A stretch of 64,000 nucleotides of DNA from Streptomyces sp. WM6386 (GTDB taxonomy: Bacteria; Actinomycetota; Actinomycetes; Streptomycetales; Streptomycetaceae): assembly GCF_000972385.1 (NCBI RefSeq), contig NZ_JXTE01000007.1:107763-171762 (forward strand), written 5' to 3'. This document shows, piece by piece, positions 34,011 to 46,191 of this stretch. Under the pieces are notes generated by a model, which was given only the letters and a program-made list of their open reading frames with translations, ran no database searches and was not told the DNA's origin. Position numbers and translations under genes: made by a program. Position 1 is the first letter of the stretch, and each line of letters begins with the position of its first letter.

Positions 34011-34829
34011 GTGACCGGGACCGAGCCGGCCGCCGTCCAGCGGATCGACACGACCAGGCCGCACCCGGCCCGCGTCTACGACTGGTACCTCGGCGGCAAG
34101 GACAACTACCCGGTCGACGAGGCCCTCGGCCGTCAGATCGCCTCGCTCAGCGGCGACGCCCCGCGGGCCGCGCGCGCCAATCGCTGGTTCATGAACCGGG
34201 CCATCCGCCGGCTGGCCGCGAACGCGGGAATCCGCCAGTTCCTGGACATCGGCACCGGCATCCCCACCGAGCCCAATCTCCACCAGATCGCCCAGCAGGT
34301 CGCCGCGGACGCCCGCGTCGTCTACGTCGACAACGACCCGATCGTCCTCGCCCACGCCGGCGCCCTGCTGCGCGGCACCGAGGAGGGCGTGACGGAGTAC
34401 ATCGAAGCCGACGTGCGCGAGCCGCGGACGATCCTCGAACAGGCGGGGCAGATCCTCGACTTCGACCGGCCCGTCGCCCTGTCGCTCATCGCCCTCATGC
34501 ACTTCGTCGCCGCCGAGGACGGCGCGTACGACCTGGTGGACGCGCTGGTCGGCGCGCTGGCTCCGGGCAGTGCTCTGGTGCTGTCCGCGATGACCGCCGA
34601 CTTCGAGCCGGAGAACGTACAGCGGGGCATCGAGGCCTACGCGGCGGGCGGAGTGACGCTGGTGGCCCGTACCCGGGACGAGTTCGGCCGCTTCTTCGAG
34701 GGACTCGACGTGCTGGAGCCGGGGATCGTGTCGGTCAAGGACTGGCGTCCCGAACTCGCGGTGGCCGAGACGCCCGACCCCGCAGCGGGACCGGTGTCGC
34801 TCTACGGGGCCGTCGGGATCAAGTCCTAG
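34011..34829 (+). CDS. DUF574 family S-adenosylmethionine methyltransferase
   Basis: 272 residues. The family start RPHPARVYDWYLGGKDNYPVD (here in part: ARVYDWYLGGKDNYP) is diagnostic. FLDIGTGIPTEPNLHQIAQ contains the cofactor-binding glycine motif, and VVYVDNDPIVLAHA the acidic strand. These Streptomyces proteins are abundant and their substrates are unknown. GTG start with GGAG upstream. A paralogue with the same layout lies at 45388. The 3' end overlaps the convergent SDR gene by four bases. Confidence 0.85.
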   Translation: MTGTEPAAVQRIDTTRPHPARVYDWYLGGKDNYPVDEALGRQIASLSGDAPRAARANRWFMNRAIRRLAANAGIRQFLDIGTGIPTEPNLHQIAQQVAADARVVYVDNDPIVLAHAGALLRGTEEGVTEYIEADVREPRTILEQAGQILDFDRPVALSLIALMHFVAAEDGAYDLVDALVGALAPGSALVLSAMTADFEPENVQRGIEAYAAGGVTLVARTRDEFGRFFEGLDVLEPGIVSVKDWRPELAVAETPDPAAGPVSLYGAVGIKS

Positions 34830-35518
34830 CCCAGCAACCACCCCCCGTCCACCGCGAGTTCGACGGCGTTGACCGACCGGTTGCGCAGCAGGAAGTCCAC
34901 GGCGTCCACCACGTCCGCCATCGTGGCGAGCCGTCCGGTGGGTGTCCCGGTGCGCAGTCGGGCGAGCACCTCCCCCGGTTTGGCCAGCCAGTACGGGCTG
35001 TCCCCGACGACTCCGGGGTGGAGGGCGTTGACACGGACGGGGGCGAGTTCGACGGCGAGGGTGTTCACCAGTCCGCGCACTCCCGCGTTGACGGTCGCCA
35101 CGGTCGTCGCGCCCGGGTAGGGCCGCTCCTTGGCCTGGCCGCCGAACACGACGACGGCACTGTCGTCGTGCAGCCGGTCCCGGAGGGCGTGCACGACCTC
35201 GGTGTAGCCGACGAGCTTCAACGTCACCAGGTTCAGGGCGGCCTCGATGTCGTACTGGCTCACCCGGTTGTCGTCGCGGGCGACACCGGCCAGGACGAGA
35301 TGGTCGACAGACCCGATGCCGCCGAGCGCTGCCGCGATCTCCCGTGGCCGCGACAGGTCGAGGGCGATGCCTCGCAGCGCACCGACCTCCTTGGCCGCCG
35401 TGCCGGCACGATGGGCGTCCCTGCCGGTGAGGACCACCTCGTCCCCCCGCCCCGCACGGAAGCGGGCGAACTCGCGGCCGATCCCCGACGTACCACCGAC
35501 GACGAGCACACTGCTCAT
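34826..35518 (-). CDS. SDR family protein with degenerate active site
   Basis: 230 residues with a Rossmann fold: VLVVGGTSGIGREFARF is a good cofactor-binding motif and LAGVA replaces the usual NNAG. At the place where SDR enzymes have Ser...Tyr-x-x-x-Lys, this protein reads GATTVATVNAGVRG (about residues 136-149), so neither the Tyr nor the Lys is present. A close relative of this group may use another mechanism or act as a binding protein. Last gene of the seven-gene operon; its ATG overlaps the bicupin stop by four bases. Confidence 0.8.
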   Translation of the reverse strand: MSSVLVVGGTSGIGREFARFRAGRGDEVVLTGRDAHRAGTAAKEVGALRGIALDLSRPREIAAALGGIGSVDHLVLAGVARDDNRVSQYDIEAALNLVTLKLVGYTEVVHALRDRLHDDSAVVVFGGQAKERPYPGATTVATVNAGVRGLVNTLAVELAPVRVNALHPGVVGDSPYWLAKPGEVLARLRTGTPTGRLATMADVVDAVDFLLRNRSVNAVELAVDGGWLLG

Positions 35519-36390
35519 GACTCCAGCGCCTCCTGAAGGTACTGCCAGTCCCGTGTGAACCGGTACGAGTGGCGGGTCGGCGGCTGAGGCGCCTGGGTCT
35601 CCAGCCAACGCACCGGCCCCGCACCGGCGTTGGTGAACCCGTGTACACAACCGGCGCCCGCCCAGGCCACATCGCCGGGCCCCAGCCGGTGCACCGAGCC
35701 GTCGAAGGTGGCGTCCACGGCCCCTTCGAGGATCAGGTACGTCTCCTCGAAGGGGTGGTCGTGCGTGCCCGCGACGCCGTCCGGGGCGTACTGCACCATG
35801 AACATCGTCGAGGCGACCGCGCCCAGGTCGCCGTCGACCATCATCTTCACCGTGATCCCGCTGTAGACGAGCAGCGCGGTGCGCATGCTCGCCGACACCG
35901 CGAGCAGGTCCTGGGACTGTTTGCCGGGTTCCATCTGCGCGGGCTCGAAGTGCCCGAAGGAACGGGTGCGCGGGTCACGGACGTCGAGGCGGACGGGGCC
36001 TCGGCGGGGCAGCGCGGGCACCGCCTGGGTGTCGTGGCCGTAGCGGGCACGCGGCACGGGCGCCAGCATGTCCGCCCAGCGTGCGGCGGTGTCCCCGGCG
36101 CCCCGCCAGGCGTGCGGGACACCTGTCGGCAGCAGCCCGTAGTCGCCCTCTTCGAGGAGATACGACCCTTCGGGCACGTCGAGGACGACGGTCCCGTCGA
36201 GCACGCAGAAGCTCTCCTCGTACGAGTGGACGTGGGGCCCGATCGCACCGTCCGGCAGCAACTCGCAGACGCCGAAGCCGGTATGGACGCTGCCGTCGTC
36301 CTCGCCGACCAACTCCCGCCGCCGATAGCCGTGTTCGTCGTACTCCGACGGCGGTACGTCGGTGGCGCGGCGTACCAGGTGAGCGGTCAC
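35515..36390 (-). CDS. Bicupin protein, ureidoglycine aminohydrolase-like
   Basis: 291 residues with two cupin domains. The first has HVHSYEESFCVLDG and GDYGLLPTGVPHAW, the second has THDHPFEETYLILEG and GDVAWAGAGCVHGFTN. In both, His and Glu residues stand where cupins bind metal. The overall pattern, including RWLETQAPQPP, resembles AllE/UGHY-type (S)-ureidoglycine aminohydrolases of purine catabolism, though the family is broad. The GTG start overlaps the amidohydrolase stop (GTGA). It probably acts on the same substrate series as the amidohydrolase. Confidence 0.8.
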   Translation of the reverse strand: MTAHLVRRATDVPPSEYDEHGYRRRELVGEDDGSVHTGFGVCELLPDGAIGPHVHSYEESFCVLDGTVVLDVPEGSYLLEEGDYGLLPTGVPHAWRGAGDTAARWADMLAPVPRARYGHDTQAVPALPRRGPVRLDVRDPRTRSFGHFEPAQMEPGKQSQDLLAVSASMRTALLVYSGITVKMMVDGDLGAVASTMFMVQYAPDGVAGTHDHPFEETYLILEGAVDATFDGSVHRLGPGDVAWAGAGCVHGFTNAGAGPVRWLETQAPQPPTRHSYRFTRDWQYLQEALES

Positions 36391-37730
36391 CGGGCGGCCT
36401 TCGCGGCCAGGAGCCGGTCGCGGGACTCCTCGACGAGGCGCCGGGCGCGGGCCACGTCGGCGGTCAACTTGCCGTCCCGCTTGCGGATCACGCCGTCGAC
36501 GAGCACGGTGTCCACATTGGAGACGTCGGCGGACAGCGCCACCGCGGCCGCCGCGTCGTGCACCGGCGCCACGTTCAGCGCGGTGGCGTCGATCGCGACG
36601 ACGTCGGCCCGCTTGCCGGGTGTGAGGGAGCCGGTGCGGTCCTCCAGGCCCGCCACGTGGGCACCGTTGAGGGTGGCGATCTCCAGCATCCGACGGGCCG
36701 TCAGCATCGTTTCGGGCACCGGGACATCGGCCTGCCAGCACTCCGCGTTGACGCGGGCGCGTTCGGCACCGAAGGCCGCGCGGATCTGGGTGAACATGTC
36801 GCCGGGGACGGTGGTGACGACGTCGATGCTCAAGGATGGCCGCAGCCCGTGCTCGATCGCCTTCATCACCGGCGGCCAGCCGTGCCCCATCTGCGTCTCG
36901 ACCTGCGGCGCGACGGACACCGTACCGCCGCTGTCGGCGACCATCCGCCACTCCTCCTCGCTGAAGTAGCAGCAGTGGATGTAGGTGGTGTCCGGACCGA
37001 GGAGCCCCAGGTCGTGGAGCTGCTTGACCATGCCGAAGCGGCCGGCCAGCCGGCCCATACCGACATGGACGGTGAGCGGGATGTCCAGTTCCCGGGCCAG
37101 ACCCCACTCCGCGATGACGACGTCGTTCACACAGAAGCCGGGACCACGGGTGGCGAGGCCCATGGTGAGCAGGGAGTCGTCGGAGGCGAAGTACCTGGCG
37201 CGGATCCGTCGTACGTCGTCTCCCGGGATCGCGATCTTGCTCTCGAACCAGTAGTCGGCGAGGGAGGTGTTGGCGCTGCCGTAGGCGTACTGGGCGCGGA
37301 TGCCGGTCTCGGCGAGGGCCCGGATCGCGGCGTCGGGGTGTTCGGGGGTGTTGTTGATGTGCGACCAGTCGACGAGCGTGGTGATTCCTGCGTTGAGGCA
37401 CTCCAGGGCGCCGGCCAGGTTGGCCGCGTAGACGTCCTCAGGGGTGTAGAGCGGTGCGAAGGTGTCGAGGATGTCGACGAAGTAGTCGTCGAGCGTGGCG
37501 TCCGGCGCGACCCCGCGGATCGAGGCCTCCCAGGTGTGGCGGTGGGTGTCGACGAAGCCGGGGATCACGATCCGGCCGGTCATGTCGAGGACTTCGGCGT
37601 CGGCGCTGATCTCGGGTCGTACGGCCGCGATCTTCCCGTCCTCGATGAGGACGTCCCCTCGGGGAAGGTCCCCGATGTCGGGGTCCATCGAGATCACGTG
37701 ACCTGCGCGCAGGAGTGTCCGAACGGTCAT
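36387..37730 (-). CDS. Amidohydrolase (TrzN/8-oxoguanine deaminase-like group)
   Basis: 447 residues. The metal-binding pattern of the amidohydrolase superfamily is present: His63 and His65 in DTHRHTW, His221 in TVHVGMG, His251 in YIHCCYFSEEE and Asp302 in LSIDVVTT. N-terminal and C-terminal beta-sandwich segments flank the barrel (LTPGKRADVVAID). Relatives deaminate or dechlorinate N-heterocycles such as oxo-purines, triazines and cytosine. Fifth gene of the operon, 22 bases after E1 beta. The exact substrate is unknown. Confidence 0.82.
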   Translation of the reverse strand: MTVRTLLRAGHVISMDPDIGDLPRGDVLIEDGKIAAVRPEISADAEVLDMTGRIVIPGFVDTHRHTWEASIRGVAPDATLDDYFVDILDTFAPLYTPEDVYAANLAGALECLNAGITTLVDWSHINNTPEHPDAAIRALAETGIRAQYAYGSANTSLADYWFESKIAIPGDDVRRIRARYFASDDSLLTMGLATRGPGFCVNDVVIAEWGLARELDIPLTVHVGMGRLAGRFGMVKQLHDLGLLGPDTTYIHCCYFSEEEWRMVADSGGTVSVAPQVETQMGHGWPPVMKAIEHGLRPSLSIDVVTTVPGDMFTQIRAAFGAERARVNAECWQADVPVPETMLTARRMLEIATLNGAHVAGLEDRTGSLTPGKRADVVAIDATALNVAPVHDAAAAVALSADVSNVDTVLVDGVIRKRDGKLTADVARARRLVEESRDRLLAAKAAR

Positions 37731-37752
37731 CGCCCTTCCTCCTTCGGGGTGT

Positions 37753-38733
37753 TCAGTACGCGGTGAGGTCGCGGACGGTCGCCACGACCTTGTCGACGGT
37801 GGGGATGACCCGCTCCTCCAGCGCGTCGGCGAACGGCAACGGGACGCACTCCCCCGCCACCCTCCGCACGGGCGCGTCCAGCAGGCCGAAGCCCTCGTCG
37901 GCGACGACCGAGACGACGGTGGCGCCCCAGCCGCCCTGGTACGGGTTCTCCTCCACGGTGACGAGCCGCGAGGTCCGGGCGAGCGAGGCGAGAACGGTGC
38001 TCATGTCCAGCGGCACCAGACAGCGCAGATCGACGACCTCGGCCTCGACACCCTCCTCGGCGAGCCGGGCGGCCGCCCGCAGCGCCACCGGCACCATCGC
38101 GGCGAGGGCGACGAGGGTCACGTCGGCACCCTCGCGCACCACGGCGGCGCGCCCCAGCTCGACCACATGGTCCGACGGCGGCGGCGAACCCTTCGACGCC
38201 AGCAGCCCCTTGTGCTCGAAGAAGACCACGGGGTCGTCGCTGCGGATCGCCGCCGCCATCATGCCGATCACGTCGGCGGGCGTCGCCGGTGCCGCGATCT
38301 TCAGGCCGGGGACGGTGAGCGCCCAGTTCTCGGTGGCCTGCGAGTGCTGGGCGCCGAAACCGAGCCCGCCGCCGTTGGCGGTGCGAACGACGAGGGGCAC
38401 GGTGACCTGACCGCCTGTCATGTAACGCACCTTGGGTATCTCGTTGGCGAGGTAGTCCCAACAACAGGCCAAAAAGTCCGAGAACATGATCTCCGCGACC
38501 GGCCGCATCCCGGTCATGGCCGCGCCCATCGCCGCGCCCACGATGGCCTGTTCGGAGATCGGCGTGTCCCACACCCGCTCCGGCCCGAACTCCTTGAACA
38601 GCCCGGCGGTCGTCTTGAACACCCCGCCGGCCTCCCCGATGTCCTCGCCGAGACAGACGACACGTGGGTCCCGGCGCATCTCCCGCGCGATGCCCTCGGC
38701 GACCGCCTCCCGGTAGGTGATCACGTCCGCCAC
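37753..38733 (-). CDS. 2-oxoacid/acetoin dehydrogenase E1 component, beta subunit
   Basis: 326 residues of the transketolase-like E1 beta fold. ITYREAVAEGIAREM at the N-terminus, GEDIGEAGGVFKTTAGLF and DTPISEQAIVGAAMGAA are standard, and GAQHSQATENW carries the conserved His. It pairs with the alpha subunit upstream in a thiamin-diphosphate decarboxylase. The GTG at 38733 is set by GGAGGT five bases upstream and overlaps the alpha gene by 13 bases. No E2 or E3 gene is adjacent, so a lipoyl partner would come from elsewhere or a different acceptor is used. Confidence 0.88.
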   Translation of the reverse strand: MADVITYREAVAEGIAREMRRDPRVVCLGEDIGEAGGVFKTTAGLFKEFGPERVWDTPISEQAIVGAAMGAAMTGMRPVAEIMFSDFLACCWDYLANEIPKVRYMTGGQVTVPLVVRTANGGGLGFGAQHSQATENWALTVPGLKIAAPATPADVIGMMAAAIRSDDPVVFFEHKGLLASKGSPPPSDHVVELGRAAVVREGADVTLVALAAMVPVALRAAARLAEEGVEAEVVDLRCLVPLDMSTVLASLARTSRLVTVEENPYQGGWGATVVSVVADEGFGLLDAPVRRVAGECVPLPFADALEERVIPTVDKVVATVRDLTAY

Positions 38734-39701
38734 GCCGCACCTCCGTCGGCCCATACGTCGGTCAGTGCCTGCTCAGGATCGGGCGCGGGCGCGCTCTTCG
38801 CCGCCTCGACCGCCTTCCGTACGACGTCCAGGGCGCGCTCGTCGGCCGCGGTGAGCGTCGCCTCGGGCACGCCCAGCTCGGTCAGCCGTCCCCGCGCGAT
38901 GTCCAACGGGTCGTGCTTGAGCCAGCGTTCGACCTCCTCGGCCGGACGGTAGGTCGCCGGGTCGGACCGGCTGTGGCCGAAGTGCCGGTAGGTCGTGGCC
39001 TCCAGCAGAGCGGGCCCGTCTCCTGCCCGAGCCCGCCCTGCCATGGCGGCGACGGCGTCCCGGACCGCGACGACGTCGTTGCCGTCGACCGTCTCCCCCG
39101 GGATGCCGTAGGCGGGCGCCCGGTCGGCGGCGGGCCGGGCGACCGCGGTGACGGCGGCGATCGGCGTGTACTCCATGTACAGGTTGTTCTCGCAGACGAA
39201 CAGCACGGGCAGCTTCCACACGGCGGCCAGGTTCAGCGCCTCGTGGAAGGCCCCGATGTTGGTCGCGCCGTCACCGAAGAAGGCCACCGCGACCTGGTCG
39301 GTGCCGCGCAGCCGCGCCGACCAGGCCGCGCCGGCCGCCATCGGGAGGTGGGCGCCGACGATGGCGTAGGAGCCGAGCATGCCGGTGGCCGCCTTGGTCA
39401 GGTGCATGGAGCCGCCCTTGGCTCCGCACAGCCCCGTTGCCCGGCTCATGAGTTCGGCGAGGCACTCCTCGGGGGTGGCGCCCCGCGCCAGGGCGTGATG
39501 GTGGCCGCGGTAGGTGGCGAAGACGTAGTCGTCGGCGCGCAGGGCGGCGCTCGCGCCGACGGCGATCGCCTCGTGTCCGGCGGCGAGGTGGGTGGTGCCC
39601 TTGACGAGGCCCTGGAGGAACAGGTCGTGGGCGGCCTTCTCGGTACCGCGGATGAGGACCATCTGCTCGTACAGGGCGAGGAGTTCGGCGCTATCCACCA
39701 T
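38721..39701 (-). CDS. 2-oxoacid/acetoin dehydrogenase E1 component, alpha subunit
   Basis: 326 residues. The thiamin diphosphate motif GDGATNIGAFHEALN lies around residues 145-160 and ends in the expected CENN (FVCENNLYMEY). AGHEAIAVGASAALRADDYVF and MHLTKAATGMLG are typical of the pyruvate/acetoin E1 alpha group. It decarboxylates a 2-oxoacid or cleaves an acetoin-like ketol. The ATG at 39701 with GGGGTGA upstream is preferred over a GTG at 39710. It overlaps the M24 gene end by 11 bases. Confidence 0.88.
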   Translation of the reverse strand: MVDSAELLALYEQMVLIRGTEKAAHDLFLQGLVKGTTHLAAGHEAIAVGASAALRADDYVFATYRGHHHALARGATPEECLAELMSRATGLCGAKGGSMHLTKAATGMLGSYAIVGAHLPMAAGAAWSARLRGTDQVAVAFFGDGATNIGAFHEALNLAAVWKLPVLFVCENNLYMEYTPIAAVTAVARPAADRAPAYGIPGETVDGNDVVAVRDAVAAMAGRARAGDGPALLEATTYRHFGHSRSDPATYRPAEEVERWLKHDPLDIARGRLTELGVPEATLTAADERALDVVRKAVEAAKSAPAPDPEQALTDVWADGGAAWRT

Positions 39702-41025
39702 GGGAGTCACCCCGGTTGAGATGGGACTGCGACTCCCGCCGGGTGTTGAGTTCGCCGCCGACCGTCCAGTACTTGCGGCCCGCCACCAGCAGTTCCTCGG
39801 CGGGAAACTTGGTGATGACCTCGCAGCCGTCGGCGGTGACGACGAGCTCCTCCTCGATACGGGCCGCGGACCAGCCGTCGGCGGCCGGCCAGTAGGTCTC
39901 CAGGGCGAACACCATGCCCTCTTCGAGGACTTCGGGGTGGTCCAGGGAGACCAGGCGGCTGAAGATGGGCTTCTCCCAGATGGACAGCCCGACGCCGTGG
40001 CCGTACTGCAGGGCGAAGGCGGCGGTCTCGTCGGCGAAGCCGAACTCCTCGGCGCTCGGCCAGACCCGGACGATGTCGGCGGTGGTGGCGCCGGGGCGGA
40101 CGAGCGCGATCGCCTCGTCCATGTACTCCCGGCAGCGGACGTACGCGTCGCGCTGGGCGCCGGACGCGCTGCCCACGGCGAAGGTGCGGTAGTAGCAGGT
40201 GCGGTAGCCCAGGTGGCTGTGCAGGATGTCGAAGAAGGCGGGGTCGCCGGGGCGGATCAGACGGTCGCTGTAGACGTGCGGGTGGGGCGAACAGCGTTCC
40301 CCGGAGATGGCGTTGACGCCTTCGACGTACTCGCTCCCCAGGTCGTACAGGATCTTGCTGACGAGCCCCACGCACTCGTTCTCACGCACGCCGGGCCGCA
40401 GATAGCCGTACAGCTCCTCGTACGCGGCGTCGACCATCGCGCAGGCCTGGGCCAGCAGGGAGATCTCGTCGCGGGTCTTGATGCGGCGGGCCTCCAGGAA
40501 GACCTGCTGGCCGTCGACGACGTCGATGCCCTCGGCGCGCAGGGCGGCGAGGACCGGCATCTCGGCGACGTCGATGCCCAACGGCTCGTCCGCCAGGCCG
40601 TGTTCGCGCAGCTCGGCGGCGATCTTCGCGGCGACGTCCTCGGCGATCCCGGCGTCCGGGTGGAAGGCACCGCGGAGGGTGGAGATGCCGGCGCGGGCGC
40701 CCGTGGGCGGGCCGTCCTTGCCGGCGCTGTAGTCGAGCCAGGGGTTGTACAGCTGGTGGTGGCGGGCGGCGGAGCCGAAGTCCCAGACGACCGGTTCACC
40801 ACCGCGCGTCAGCAGGGCGAAGCGGATCAGCTTGTCCATCGCCCAGGTGCCGATGTGCGTGGCGGTCATGTAGCGGATGTTGGCGAAGTCGAAGCTGAGC
40901 ACCGCGCCGAGGGAGGAGCGGTTCAGGGTCTCGTGCAGCCGGGCCAGCCGTTGCCTGCGGAGCCGGTCCAGGTCGACGCGCTCTTCCCAGTCGACGGCGC
41001 CCGGTCCGAAAGTGCGGATCGCCAT
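39691..41025 (-). CDS. M24 family metallopeptidase-like protein with altered metal site
   Basis: 444 residues. An N-terminal creatinase-like domain (SFDFANIRYMTATH, VVWDF) precedes the pita-bread domain. Of the five M24 metal ligands, four are present: Asp266 (FFDILHS), His343 (YGHGVGL), Glu376 (MVFALE) and Glu391 (RIEEEL). The second Asp, expected 11 residues after the first, is Cys277 (GYRTCYYRT). The N-terminal pattern recalls DddP-type DMSP lyases and creatinases more than classic prolidases. First enzyme gene of the operon, 52 bases after the regulator. The ATG at 41025 has a GGGGGTGG site; a GTG at 41040 has none. Confidence 0.82.
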   Translation of the reverse strand: MAIRTFGPGAVDWEERVDLDRLRRQRLARLHETLNRSSLGAVLSFDFANIRYMTATHIGTWAMDKLIRFALLTRGGEPVVWDFGSAARHHQLYNPWLDYSAGKDGPPTGARAGISTLRGAFHPDAGIAEDVAAKIAAELREHGLADEPLGIDVAEMPVLAALRAEGIDVVDGQQVFLEARRIKTRDEISLLAQACAMVDAAYEELYGYLRPGVRENECVGLVSKILYDLGSEYVEGVNAISGERCSPHPHVYSDRLIRPGDPAFFDILHSHLGYRTCYYRTFAVGSASGAQRDAYVRCREYMDEAIALVRPGATTADIVRVWPSAEEFGFADETAAFALQYGHGVGLSIWEKPIFSRLVSLDHPEVLEEGMVFALETYWPAADGWSAARIEEELVVTADGCEVITKFPAEELLVAGRKYWTVGGELNTRRESQSHLNRGDSHGG

Positions 41026-41077
41026 GGCGACCACCCCCACCTTCGAGTCAACGACCGTGTCCCGGAAGTGTCAAGTG

Positions 41078-41755
41078 CTACTGAACACTCCGGCCGGCGA
41101 CGAACCAGACCCCCACGGCCGGTTCGGCGCCGTCGTTGCGGTAGCGGTGCGGGGTCGTCGACTCGAAGCACACGGCGTCGCCGGGGCGCAGGACGCGTTC
41201 CTCGAAACCGAGGGTGAGGACGAGTTCACCGGAGGTGAGATAGCCGTACTCGGTGCCCGCGTGGCGCATCAGACCGCCTGATGTGGCGGAGGAGCCGCCG
41301 GGCCGGTAGGTCACCAGCAGAAAGTCGGCGTCCGTGCCGGGGACGTGTCCGAGCCGCTCCCACACGACGCCCGAGTCCAGCTCCAGGACCTCCCGCTCAC
41401 CTGGGGTGACCAGGGGCCCTATGCGTCGGCCCGGGTCGGCGGCGAAGGCGGCCATCGCGTGCAGCGCGGCGGCGCCGACCGTCGCGGTGGCGGGCTCCCG
41501 CGCTTCGAAGAGCGACTCGACGGAGATGCCGAGTGCCGTCGTGATCGCGTACAGCGTGCTCACCGACGGCTGGCTCTTGCCGGTCTCGATCTGCGACACC
41601 AGGCTCGCGGAGACCCCGACCTCACGCGCGAGGGCCCGCAGACTGAGCCCGCTCTCCAGGCGCGCCCGCCGGATGCGCGCACCGACGGGCGGCACGGCGA
41701 CAGGGGACACGGGCGGCTCCTCTCCCTCGCGGGAATGTGCAGCACCATTGAACAT
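41078..41755 (-). CDS. XRE-cupin transcriptional regulator
   Basis: 225 residues. An N-terminal helix-turn-helix of the XRE type (about residues 25-80, with LSLRALAREVGVSASLVSQI) is joined to a C-terminal cupin (about 150-220, with HAGTEYGYLTSGELVLTLG and GDAVCFESTTPHRY), the PuuR-like architecture. The cupin probably senses the pathway substrate. First gene of the operon and so probably autoregulatory. The ATG at 41755 or a GTG at 41710, which has GGAG upstream, could be the start. Confidence 0.85.
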   Translation of the reverse strand: MFNGAAHSREGEEPPVSPVAVPPVGARIRRARLESGLSLRALAREVGVSASLVSQIETGKSQPSVSTLYAITTALGISVESLFEAREPATATVGAAALHAMAAFAADPGRRIGPLVTPGEREVLELDSGVVWERLGHVPGTDADFLLVTYRPGGSSATSGGLMRHAGTEYGYLTSGELVLTLGFEERVLRPGDAVCFESTTPHRYRNDGAEPAVGVWFVAGRSVQ

Positions 41756-45387: not shown

Positions 45388-46191
45388 GTGAGTGACACCC
45401 CGGACGTGCTGTCGAGGCTGAACACCGGTGTCGCGCACAACGCGCGTGTGTGGAACCACTGGATCGGCGGCACGGACAACTACGAGGTCGACCGGCGGGT
45501 CGGCGAGCACATCGCCGGGATGTTCCCCGTCATCCGGGCCATCGCCCGCGCCGACCGCGACTTCCTCGGCCGGGCCGTGCGCCACCTGGCCGACGAGCGC
45601 GGGGTACGCCAGTTCCTGGACATCGGCACCGGCCTGCCGACGGGGGACAACACCCACGAGATCGCCCAGCGCATCGCCCCGGACGCGCGGATCGTCTACG
45701 TCGACAACGACCCCACCGTCCTCGCCCACGCCCGCACCCTGCTCACCAGCACCGGCGAGGGCGTCACCGCCTACATCGACGCCGACGTCCACGAGCCGGA
45801 GGCGATCCTCGAACGCGCCGCGCACACCCTGGACTTCACCGAGCCCGTCGCGGTGATGATGCTGGGCATCCTCAACTTCGTGCTCGACCACGACAAGGCG
45901 CGGGACATCGTCCGCCGGTTGCTGGCCGAGGTCCCCTCCGGCAGCTATCTGGTGCTCACCCACCCGACCTTCGACGACGCCCTCGGCGGCGCGGGCCAGA
46001 TCCCGGCCATGAAGTTCTGGAACGAGAACGCCACCCCACCGATCACCGCCCGCAGCGGCACCGACATCGCCGCGTTCTTCGACGGGCTGGACTTCATGGA
46101 GCCGGGTCTGGTGTCGTGCTCGCAGTGGCGCGCCGAGACCGACTCCCCGGGCGCGGTACCGCAGTTCGGCGCGGTGGCCGTGAAACCCTGA
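45388..46191 (+). CDS. DUF574 family S-adenosylmethionine methyltransferase
   Basis: 267 residues, paralogous to the protein at 34011. NARVWNHWIGGTDNYEVD is the family start, FLDIGTGLPTGDNTHEIAQ the glycine motif and IVYVDNDPTVLAHA the acidic strand. In this copy KDNYP is replaced by TDNYE. GTG start with AGGAGAGG upstream. Substrate unknown. It is followed 30 bases later by the glutamine synthetase-like gene. Confidence 0.85.
   Translation: MSDTPDVLSRLNTGVAHNARVWNHWIGGTDNYEVDRRVGEHIAGMFPVIRAIARADRDFLGRAVRHLADERGVRQFLDIGTGLPTGDNTHEIAQRIAPDARIVYVDNDPTVLAHARTLLTSTGEGVTAYIDADVHEPEAILERAAHTLDFTEPVAVMMLGILNFVLDHDKARDIVRRLLAEVPSGSYLVLTHPTFDDALGGAGQIPAMKFWNENATPPITARSGTDIAAFFDGLDFMEPGLVSCSQWRAETDSPGAVPQFGAVAVKP

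Follow-up and report, generated by a model that had tools for sequence, protein, structure and literature searches.

We examined a run of seven open reading frames in a 64-kb stretch of DNA from Streptomyces sp. WM6386 (contig NZ_JXTE01000007.1; the whole stretch is called the window below). All seven lie on the minus strand, are tightly packed and span positions 34826–41710. They encode, in order, an XRE-cupin transcriptional regulator, an M24 (creatinase/prolidase-fold) protein, the alpha and beta subunits of a thiamine diphosphate (TPP)-dependent dehydrogenase E1, a TRZ/ATZ-like amidohydrolase, a bicupin, and a protein with the short-chain dehydrogenase/reductase (SDR) fold. The gene set is beyond chance, as seen from its complete presence in 68 of 81 loci (window counted) and from the ratios of nonsynonymous to synonymous substitution rates (dN/dS). 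Sequence comparisons suggest that the operon probably breaks down a small imported molecule via an undescribed route with a central enzyme that is altered at its metal site, and that it is probably regulated by its own XRE-cupin protein. A preliminary description of this DNA did not recognize the set as a named pathway, and we likewise found no paper on it in open-access full text (most subscription journals are outside this coverage).

A conserved seven-gene set and its operator-like sites

The regulator gene (41078–41710; HTH_3, 55.6 bits, and Cupin_2, 61.8 bits) is followed by the genes for the M24 protein (39691–41025), E1 alpha (38721–39701; E1_dh, 256 bits), E1 beta (37753–38733; Transket_pyr, 146 bits, and Transketolase_C, 125 bits), the amidohydrolase (36387–37730; Amidohydro_1), the bicupin (35515–36390; Cupin_2 in two stretches) and the SDR-fold protein (34826–35518; adh_short_C2, 83.7 bits). 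These Pfam domain hits match the seven families named in the preliminary description. The spacing was re-derived and also agrees with it: with the preferred starts, M24 and E1 alpha overlap by 11 bases, E1 alpha and E1 beta by 13, and the amidohydrolase/bicupin and bicupin/SDR pairs by 4 each, leaving gaps of 52 bases between the regulator and M24 and 22 bases between E1 beta and the amidohydrolase. The start taken for E1 beta is a GTG at 38733; an alternative ATG at 38754 would give a larger overlap with E1 alpha. For the regulator a GTG at 41710 is likelier than the ATG at 41755 chosen previously, because that ATG falls at the border of a conserved operator-like motif, and because an alignment of 70 upstream regions shows a conserved AGG shortly 5' of the GTG.

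The 81 loci are the window and the best 80 of 538 confirmed loci. Genes were called with our own open reading frame caller and labeled with a reference set drawn partly from the same loci, and the label counts given here are not independent tests. Some of the 13 incomplete loci are cut by contig ends, and in two of them, L039 and L097, tblastn nevertheless finds all seven genes (in L097 in pieces). The overlaps between adjacent genes recur: E1 alpha/E1 beta in 74 of 75 pairs, M24/E1 alpha in 72 of 76, bicupin/SDR in 66 of 72 and amidohydrolase/bicupin in 64 of 72. Median dN/dS values are 0.135–0.23 (11–12 comparisons per gene), with a highest single value of 0.567. Streptomyces viridochromogenes DSM 40736 (L050) is among the strains that have the operon. 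The same seven genes are found in divergent arrangements in Phytoactinopolyspora (L102 and L103) and Micromonosporaceae (L108), and also in L110 and L150; it is the regulator gene that is divergent in L102, L103, L108 and L110. With these genera included, gene order is kept beyond Streptomyces, which the preliminary description had proposed as a check on its reading. It had also named homologues tied to different pathways as the case that would speak against that reading; this is partly so for M24 and E1, and not so for the seven-gene set. Relatives of single genes also occur in other gene sets, those of M24 most of all. An amidohydrolase of at least 83% identity is present in 53 of 392 Streptomyces genomes, including that of the window (a count of this gene and not of the whole operon), and M24 relatives at an E-value of 1e-60 or better are present in 22 of 200 genomes of the family and 40 of 396 of the phylum.

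Conserved operator-like sites of 19 bases lie on the minus strand 5' of the regulator gene and 5' of M24. The site upstream of the regulator, TGTTCAATGGTGCTGCACA (41736–41754), has two mismatches to TGTNNAGTNNNACTNNACA, and among the 70 aligned regions 5' of the regulator gene no run conserved at 90% or more is longer than TGTTCAATG. The site upstream of M24 is a palindrome, TGTTCAGTAGCACTTGACA (41069–41087), which is a perfect match and overlaps the regulator stop codon. In the 9.2-Mb genome this second site is the sole match to the strict pattern TGTTCAGTNNNACTTGACA at up to two mismatches, and the reversed pattern used as a control has none; the regulator-upstream site has four differences from the strict M24-site pattern, so it was missed by this search. 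The pattern itself was derived from these loci. Matches to a loose pattern (12 symmetric positions, up to two mismatches) lie close to M24 in 67 of the 68 loci from Streptomyces, 48 of which have two sites, and 27 matches occur elsewhere across 2.59 Mb. With three mismatches, in the window only, the loose pattern is no commoner than in shuffles, and the case for operators therefore rests on conservation and on the strict search. Outside Streptomyces a site is present near M24 in L102, L103, L105, L106, L108, L109 and L110, and none was found there in L100, L107 and L111. L164 has one 71 bases 5' of the amidohydrolase gene, and in L174 a site falls in the space that separates the amidohydrolase gene from a divergent regulator gene. 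The regulator scores 64.8 bits with the PuuR model, under its cut-off of 211, and is likely to be a local substrate-sensing protein; from the operator-like sites we propose that the operon is induced by its substrate.

Next to the operon, a convergent Methyltransf_19 gene on the plus strand (34011–34829) overlaps the end of the SDR gene by 4 bases, and the operon therefore gains no further gene on that side. A second gene of this S-adenosyl methyltransferase family lies on the other side of the operon (45388–46191, plus strand), and relatives are present in L108, L127 and L129. A functional role for the flanking genes was considered and dropped; of these genes, the P450-like and ion-channel ones have no relatives in the non-Streptomyces loci.

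Active sites, gene neighborhoods and two modules

The M24 protein belongs to the M24-fold superfamily (Peptidase_M24, PF00557; 129.6 bits, cut-off 23). Numbered from the ATG at 41025, it keeps Asp266, His343, Glu376 and Glu391, four of the five shared metal ligands. The fifth is replaced by Cys277, which aligns with the second metal-ligand Asp of prolidases and with Asp307 of DddP. Relatives were picked by similarity to this protein, down to 36% identity, and all 74 that are readable at this column carry Cys, including the haloarchaeal L137 and the 36%-identical L184 and L185. The downstream His of prolidases corresponds to Trp350 in the window, and 75 relatives have Trp (38), His (33), Tyr (3) or Gln (1) at this position. 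The active site is thus altered, as previously noted, and a canonical M24 peptidase was rejected since its ligand set of Asp, Asp, His, Glu and Glu is broken by Cys at the second Asp. An AlphaFold model of the protein was set aside (mean predicted local distance difference test score, 55.4). The distant relatives L137, which is on a haloarchaeal plasmid, L184 and L185 (about 36% identity) keep the Cys in other gene contexts.

In E1 alpha, Asp144, Glu171, Asn172, Asn173, His243 and Ser244 are kept in 102 of 102 relatives, and in E1 beta Glu30, Glu61 and His130 are kept in 100 of 100 (at least 55% identity for both). The pair has the E1 alpha and E1 beta domains and the TPP motif of a 2-oxoacid dehydrogenase E1, in agreement with the 2-oxoacid or ketol intermediate proposed in the preliminary description; the closest solved structure to E1 alpha is pyruvate dehydrogenase E1 (1ni4, 203 bits). 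Neither E2 nor E3 is encoded within the operon, as that description also stated, and the genes do not amount to a 2-oxoacid dehydrogenase complex with dedicated E2 and E3 (the genome search covered E2 only). In the genome there are four E2-type matches, on contigs C412, C112, C2 and C446 and none on the contig of the window, and those on C412, C112 and C446 each adjoin E1 matches of their own. A 178-residue protein encoded between the amidohydrolase and M24 genes of L118 (8659–9192) resembles by eye the end of an E2 catalytic domain, as if left over from one, and has no match in Pfam or NCBIfam.

Nine genes on either side of M24 were surveyed in 66 relatives (75 M24 rows minus nine, namely the Streptomyces-operon set and L182, with unread bases in M24). 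A TPP enzyme is within this range in 49 of them: 33 have E1 without E2, 12 have E1 with E2, four have a split transketolase, and in the remaining 17 no TPP enzyme was seen there. A beta-hydroxyacid dehydrogenase is within the nine genes in 43 of the 66. As a control, 892 flanking genes of the Streptomyces loci contain no E1 and no beta-hydroxyacid dehydrogenase.

The amidohydrolase belongs to the PRK08204 subfamily (NF006056, 644.5 bits, cut-off 391) and its metal ligands His63, His65, His222, His252 and Asp303 are present in 89 of 89 relatives. TRZ/ATZ deaminases are expected to have the glutamate of an HxxE motif. The position of this Glu in the deaminase 7ww2 is occupied by Met225 (Met in 83 of 89), and ordinary deaminase activity is therefore unlikely. 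In the bicupin the C-terminal metal site (His210, His212, His250 and Glu216) is kept in 81 of 81 relatives, while the N-terminal site is lost in some (His53 kept in 77, His55 in 76). Its predicted fold (model score 81.5) matches bicupins generally, with quercetinase and oxalate decarboxylase first, and names no reaction. We rejected (S)-ureidoglycine aminohydrolase as an assignment (TIGR03214, 21.2 bits, cut-off 200), and the term 'ureidoglycine-type' used previously is not upheld. Since the bicupin is not established as such, the N-heterocycle or ureido substrate suggested earlier stays a guess; related gene sets carry importers of the sugar type (CUT2) or the amino-acid type (HAAT). Classical SDR enzymes use Ser, Tyr and Lys as catalytic residues. 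The SDR-fold protein keeps the nucleotide-binding glycines and has Gly127, Val140 and Asn144 at these positions in 84 of 84 aligned proteins (compared with 5t2u). The replacement of Tyr by Val and Lys by Asn bears out the altered SDR active site noted before, and the protein is not a classical SDR oxidoreductase.

The operon may be read as two modules, amidohydrolase-bicupin-SDR and M24-E1 alpha-E1 beta, which are rearranged elsewhere and appear to serve one pathway. The preliminary description did not include these modules, the missing eighth gene described below, the operator-like sites or the Cys in the metal site. A tree of M24 proteins (quick method, with several long branches) has one clade with the window and one that is more distant. 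Members of the distant clade, L164, L170 and L174, also have amidohydrolase-bicupin-SDR, with an amidohydrolase 70–71% identical to that of the window and an M24 protein 58–60% identical, and in the amidohydrolase tree the three fall inside the clade of the window with a support of 99/100. The two modules are divergently arranged in L150 and L151, and L173, L176 and L177 combine M24, E1, bicupin, SDR and dehydrogenase genes with amidohydrolase paralogues and CUT2-type importer genes. A gene for a beta-hydroxyacid dehydrogenase of about 290 residues is directly 3' of the SDR gene in L102, L103, L107, L108, L109 and L110, and in five Streptomyces loci (L038, L040, L044, L065 and L066); the one example examined for domains has NAD_binding_2 and NAD_binding_11. 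This eighth gene is missing from the operon in the window, probably by loss. Searched with the tartronate semialdehyde reductase model, the genome gives thirteen matches, of which one exceeds the cut-off (495 bits, on another contig).

Importer genes are found beside M24 in some relatives: within nine genes, 13 of the 66 have at least two different HAAT components and 11 have two CUT2 components, while neither is the case in any of the 68 Streptomyces operon loci. This stricter two-component count was used because the loose labels (HAAT 18 and CUT2 17 of 66) had no identity limit and the 892-gene control included 15 ssuATP and 3 haatATP labels at 33% identity. The substrate-binding proteins in these relatives offer a concrete route to the substrate. 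In L176 (332–2779) a BPD_transp_2 sugar-type ABC permease is fused to an amidohydrolase domain in a protein of 816 residues, which suggests by analogy that the amidohydrolase of the operon acts on an imported compound; the best 120 of 3227 database matches all carry both domains, at 84–100% identity. A CUT2 substrate-binding protein is encoded next to the fusion gene (L176, 4373–5698). The M24-E1 gene set of L120, which includes CUT2 importer genes, also encodes a 437-residue protein that by eye resembles a doubled RidA.

Several M24 relatives are on plasmids. In Phaeobacter, Pacificitalea and Marinovum they are beside E1, E2, an aldehyde dehydrogenase, SDRs and a CUT2 importer, and on a plasmid of Streptomyces YIM 121038 beside a fused E1, E2 and an LLM-class flavin oxidoreductase. 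Others are on plasmids of Rhodococcus opacus 1CP and Paenarthrobacter (L131 and L132), the latter near sulfonamide-degradation genes. In Paenarthrobacter sp. R1 a RidA-M24-dehydrogenase-SDR-LpdA set starts two genes past the gene for the sulfonamide-degradation flavin reductase SulR, and in P. ureafaciens SD-1 M24 is accompanied by RidA, dehydrogenase and HAAT genes and by a fused E1 and E2. The SD-1 set also has an oxidoreductase that shares 73% identity with one encoded next to the set of R1. One report describes a plasmid-borne type II sadB in Paenarthrobacter with 73.2% identity to type I (PMC10873849), and we infer that the SD-1 oxidoreductase gene is this type II sadB. This lead gives context for the M24 relatives and yields no substrate.

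A proposed route and its alternatives

We give about an even chance to the reading that the seven genes form a catabolic operon under local control that degrades a single small compound taken up from outside, in which the amidohydrolase acts at an early step, M24 at an intermediate one and the TPP enzyme at a late one. The XRE-cupin protein would bind the compound or an early product and then release both operators. The amidohydrolase would hydrolyze the compound, opening or trimming it, and its product would be reshaped by the bicupin, the non-classical SDR and a beta-hydroxyacid dehydrogenase, which may come from a genomic paralogue. The Cys-containing M24 enzyme would then carry out a non-peptidase cleavage, by hydrolysis or elimination, and the E1 pair with its thiamine diphosphate would split or decarboxylate the resulting 2-oxoacid or ketol. 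The acyl group could be handed to an E2 borrowed from elsewhere or to an acceptor aldehyde, and we lean slightly toward the latter. More tentatively, and somewhat short of an even chance, M24 proteins with Cys for Asp may be an undescribed enzyme class. Together with a TPP enzyme, and in many cases with a beta-hydroxyacid dehydrogenase as well, they would make up the core of a large and interchangeable family of catabolic gene sets in Actinomycetota and roseobacters, with remoter M24 relatives in haloarchaea. The Streptomyces operon would be one branch, in which the substrate is opened by the amidohydrolase. If so, proteins labeled 'Xaa-Pro peptidase' or 'M24 family metallopeptidase' are not peptidases, and they are central to a catabolic chemistry of soil actinobacteria and marine bacteria that is still unexplored.

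Several observations weigh against the proposed route. In 17 of the 66 M24 relatives no TPP enzyme is in range; some of these loci are truncated by the end of a contig, and another of them is L132, in which a fused E1 and E2 are further away. E2 is nearby in 12 of the 45 E1-bearing relatives, which counts against an E2-free reaction. The TPP control is not clean, having six transketolase labels among the 892 genes, and a lone transketolase label is therefore weak. L036 truly lacks E1 alpha and most of E1 beta, and L183, one of the 53 Streptomyces genomes, has an amidohydrolase (85%), a 69-residue piece of E1 beta and no called M24 in what is apparently a decayed set. From L113 on, the operator-like site is near M24 in just 6 of 55 loci. 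The operon in the window has no transporter gene and the strict operator search gave no second target, so import is inferred from relatives only. Finally, the 120 listed permease fusions represent one lineage because they are 84–100% alike, and the amidohydrolase domain of the fusion is a paralogue, 44% identical to that of the window and outside its clade.

The strongest alternative, which is possible but in our view doubtful, is that the E1 pair works as a standard 2-oxoacid dehydrogenase E1 with E2 and E3 borrowed from a housekeeping complex, and that the pathway ends in an acyl-CoA, as in valine breakdown. The proximity of E1 alpha to pyruvate dehydrogenase E1 with intact motif residues, the four E2-type matches in the genome, the 12 E1-bearing relatives with E2, and the recurrence of aldehyde dehydrogenase, enoyl-CoA hydratase and HIBADH-like genes among relatives are all consistent with it. 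However, 33 of the 45 E1-bearing relatives have no E2 within nine genes, four more loci have a split transketolase, and the E2 matches on C412, C112 and C446 are already paired with E1 matches. A ureide-type pathway using allantoin-like logic with non-homologous parts is unlikely. Here the amidohydrolase would open a cyclic ureide, the bicupin would remove an amino group and M24 would cut a ureido or amidino bond like creatinase, after which the TPP enzyme and a beta-hydroxyacid dehydrogenase would convert a glyoxylate-like product via a semialdehyde to a glycerate-like acid. It would account for an amidohydrolase and a bicupin in one operon, for an E1 slot that transketolase can occupy, and for the C-terminal site of the bicupin being the only invariant cupin site; in addition, for three beta-hydroxyacid dehydrogenases of relatives the tartronate semialdehyde reductase model ranks first or second by score. 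These dehydrogenases are nevertheless under the cut-off of that model, as is the bicupin for ureidoglycine aminohydrolase, the amidohydrolase does not have the Glu of its deaminase relatives, and some relatives have sugar-type importers. Moreover, the genome has its own full-length glyoxylate carboligase (1183 bits) and tartronate semialdehyde reductase on another contig, and the allantoin logic is therefore an analogy and not a case of membership.

Less likely again is a biosynthetic operon for a specialized metabolite. E1-like TPP enzymes, cupins and SDR-fold proteins are also found in biosynthesis, and the patchy presence of the amidohydrolase among congeners (53 of 392) would fit such a role. 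On the other hand, genes for a carrier, a ligase or export are missing from the operon, importers and aldehyde dehydrogenases are present among the relatives, and the low dN/dS medians point the same way, although they are not decisive alone. That the E1 pair, M24 and the amidohydrolase-bicupin-SDR trio are unrelated genes sharing an operon by chance or regulation is very improbable: some loci do lack E1 or the trio (L036, L111 and L127), but the gene overlaps are conserved over many species and both modules meet again in the distant M24 clade, and we dropped this explanation.

Comparison with known systems

The proposed catabolic operon resembles several known systems in part. The E1 alpha and E1 beta subunits with intact motif residues are like those of acetoin and 2-oxoacid dehydrogenase complexes; in contrast to these, the operon is without E2 and E3, and four related gene sets use a split transketolase in that place. 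The allantoin-glyoxylate pathway is similar in outline, with an amidohydrolase, a bicupin and a TPP enzyme, joined in relatives by an enzyme like tartronate semialdehyde reductase. However, the bicupin and the relatives' dehydrogenases are under the curated cut-offs and the carboligase and reductase of the host are elsewhere. (S)-ureidoglycine aminohydrolase is also a bicupin, and that of the operon has an invariant C-terminal metal site, yet it reaches 21.2 bits against a cut-off of 200.

The M24 protein shares its catalytic domain and four of five metal ligands with M24 enzymes of the prolidase and creatinase type, and differs from them by Cys277 in place of the second Asp and Trp350 in place of the downstream His. 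Its top NCBIfam match is the dimethylsulfoniopropionate lyase DddP, with which it aligns over residues 16–413, including the N-terminal domain. The score of 112.6 bits is under the cut-off of 600 (NF043017), and DddP was rejected as an assignment. A study of DddP lists Asp297 and Asp307 among the metal residues, and also Asp377 (PMC4108388). When the six metal residues and Asp377 are compared, Asp307 of DddP corresponds to Cys277 of the window protein, and Asp297 and Asp377 fall in alignment gaps.

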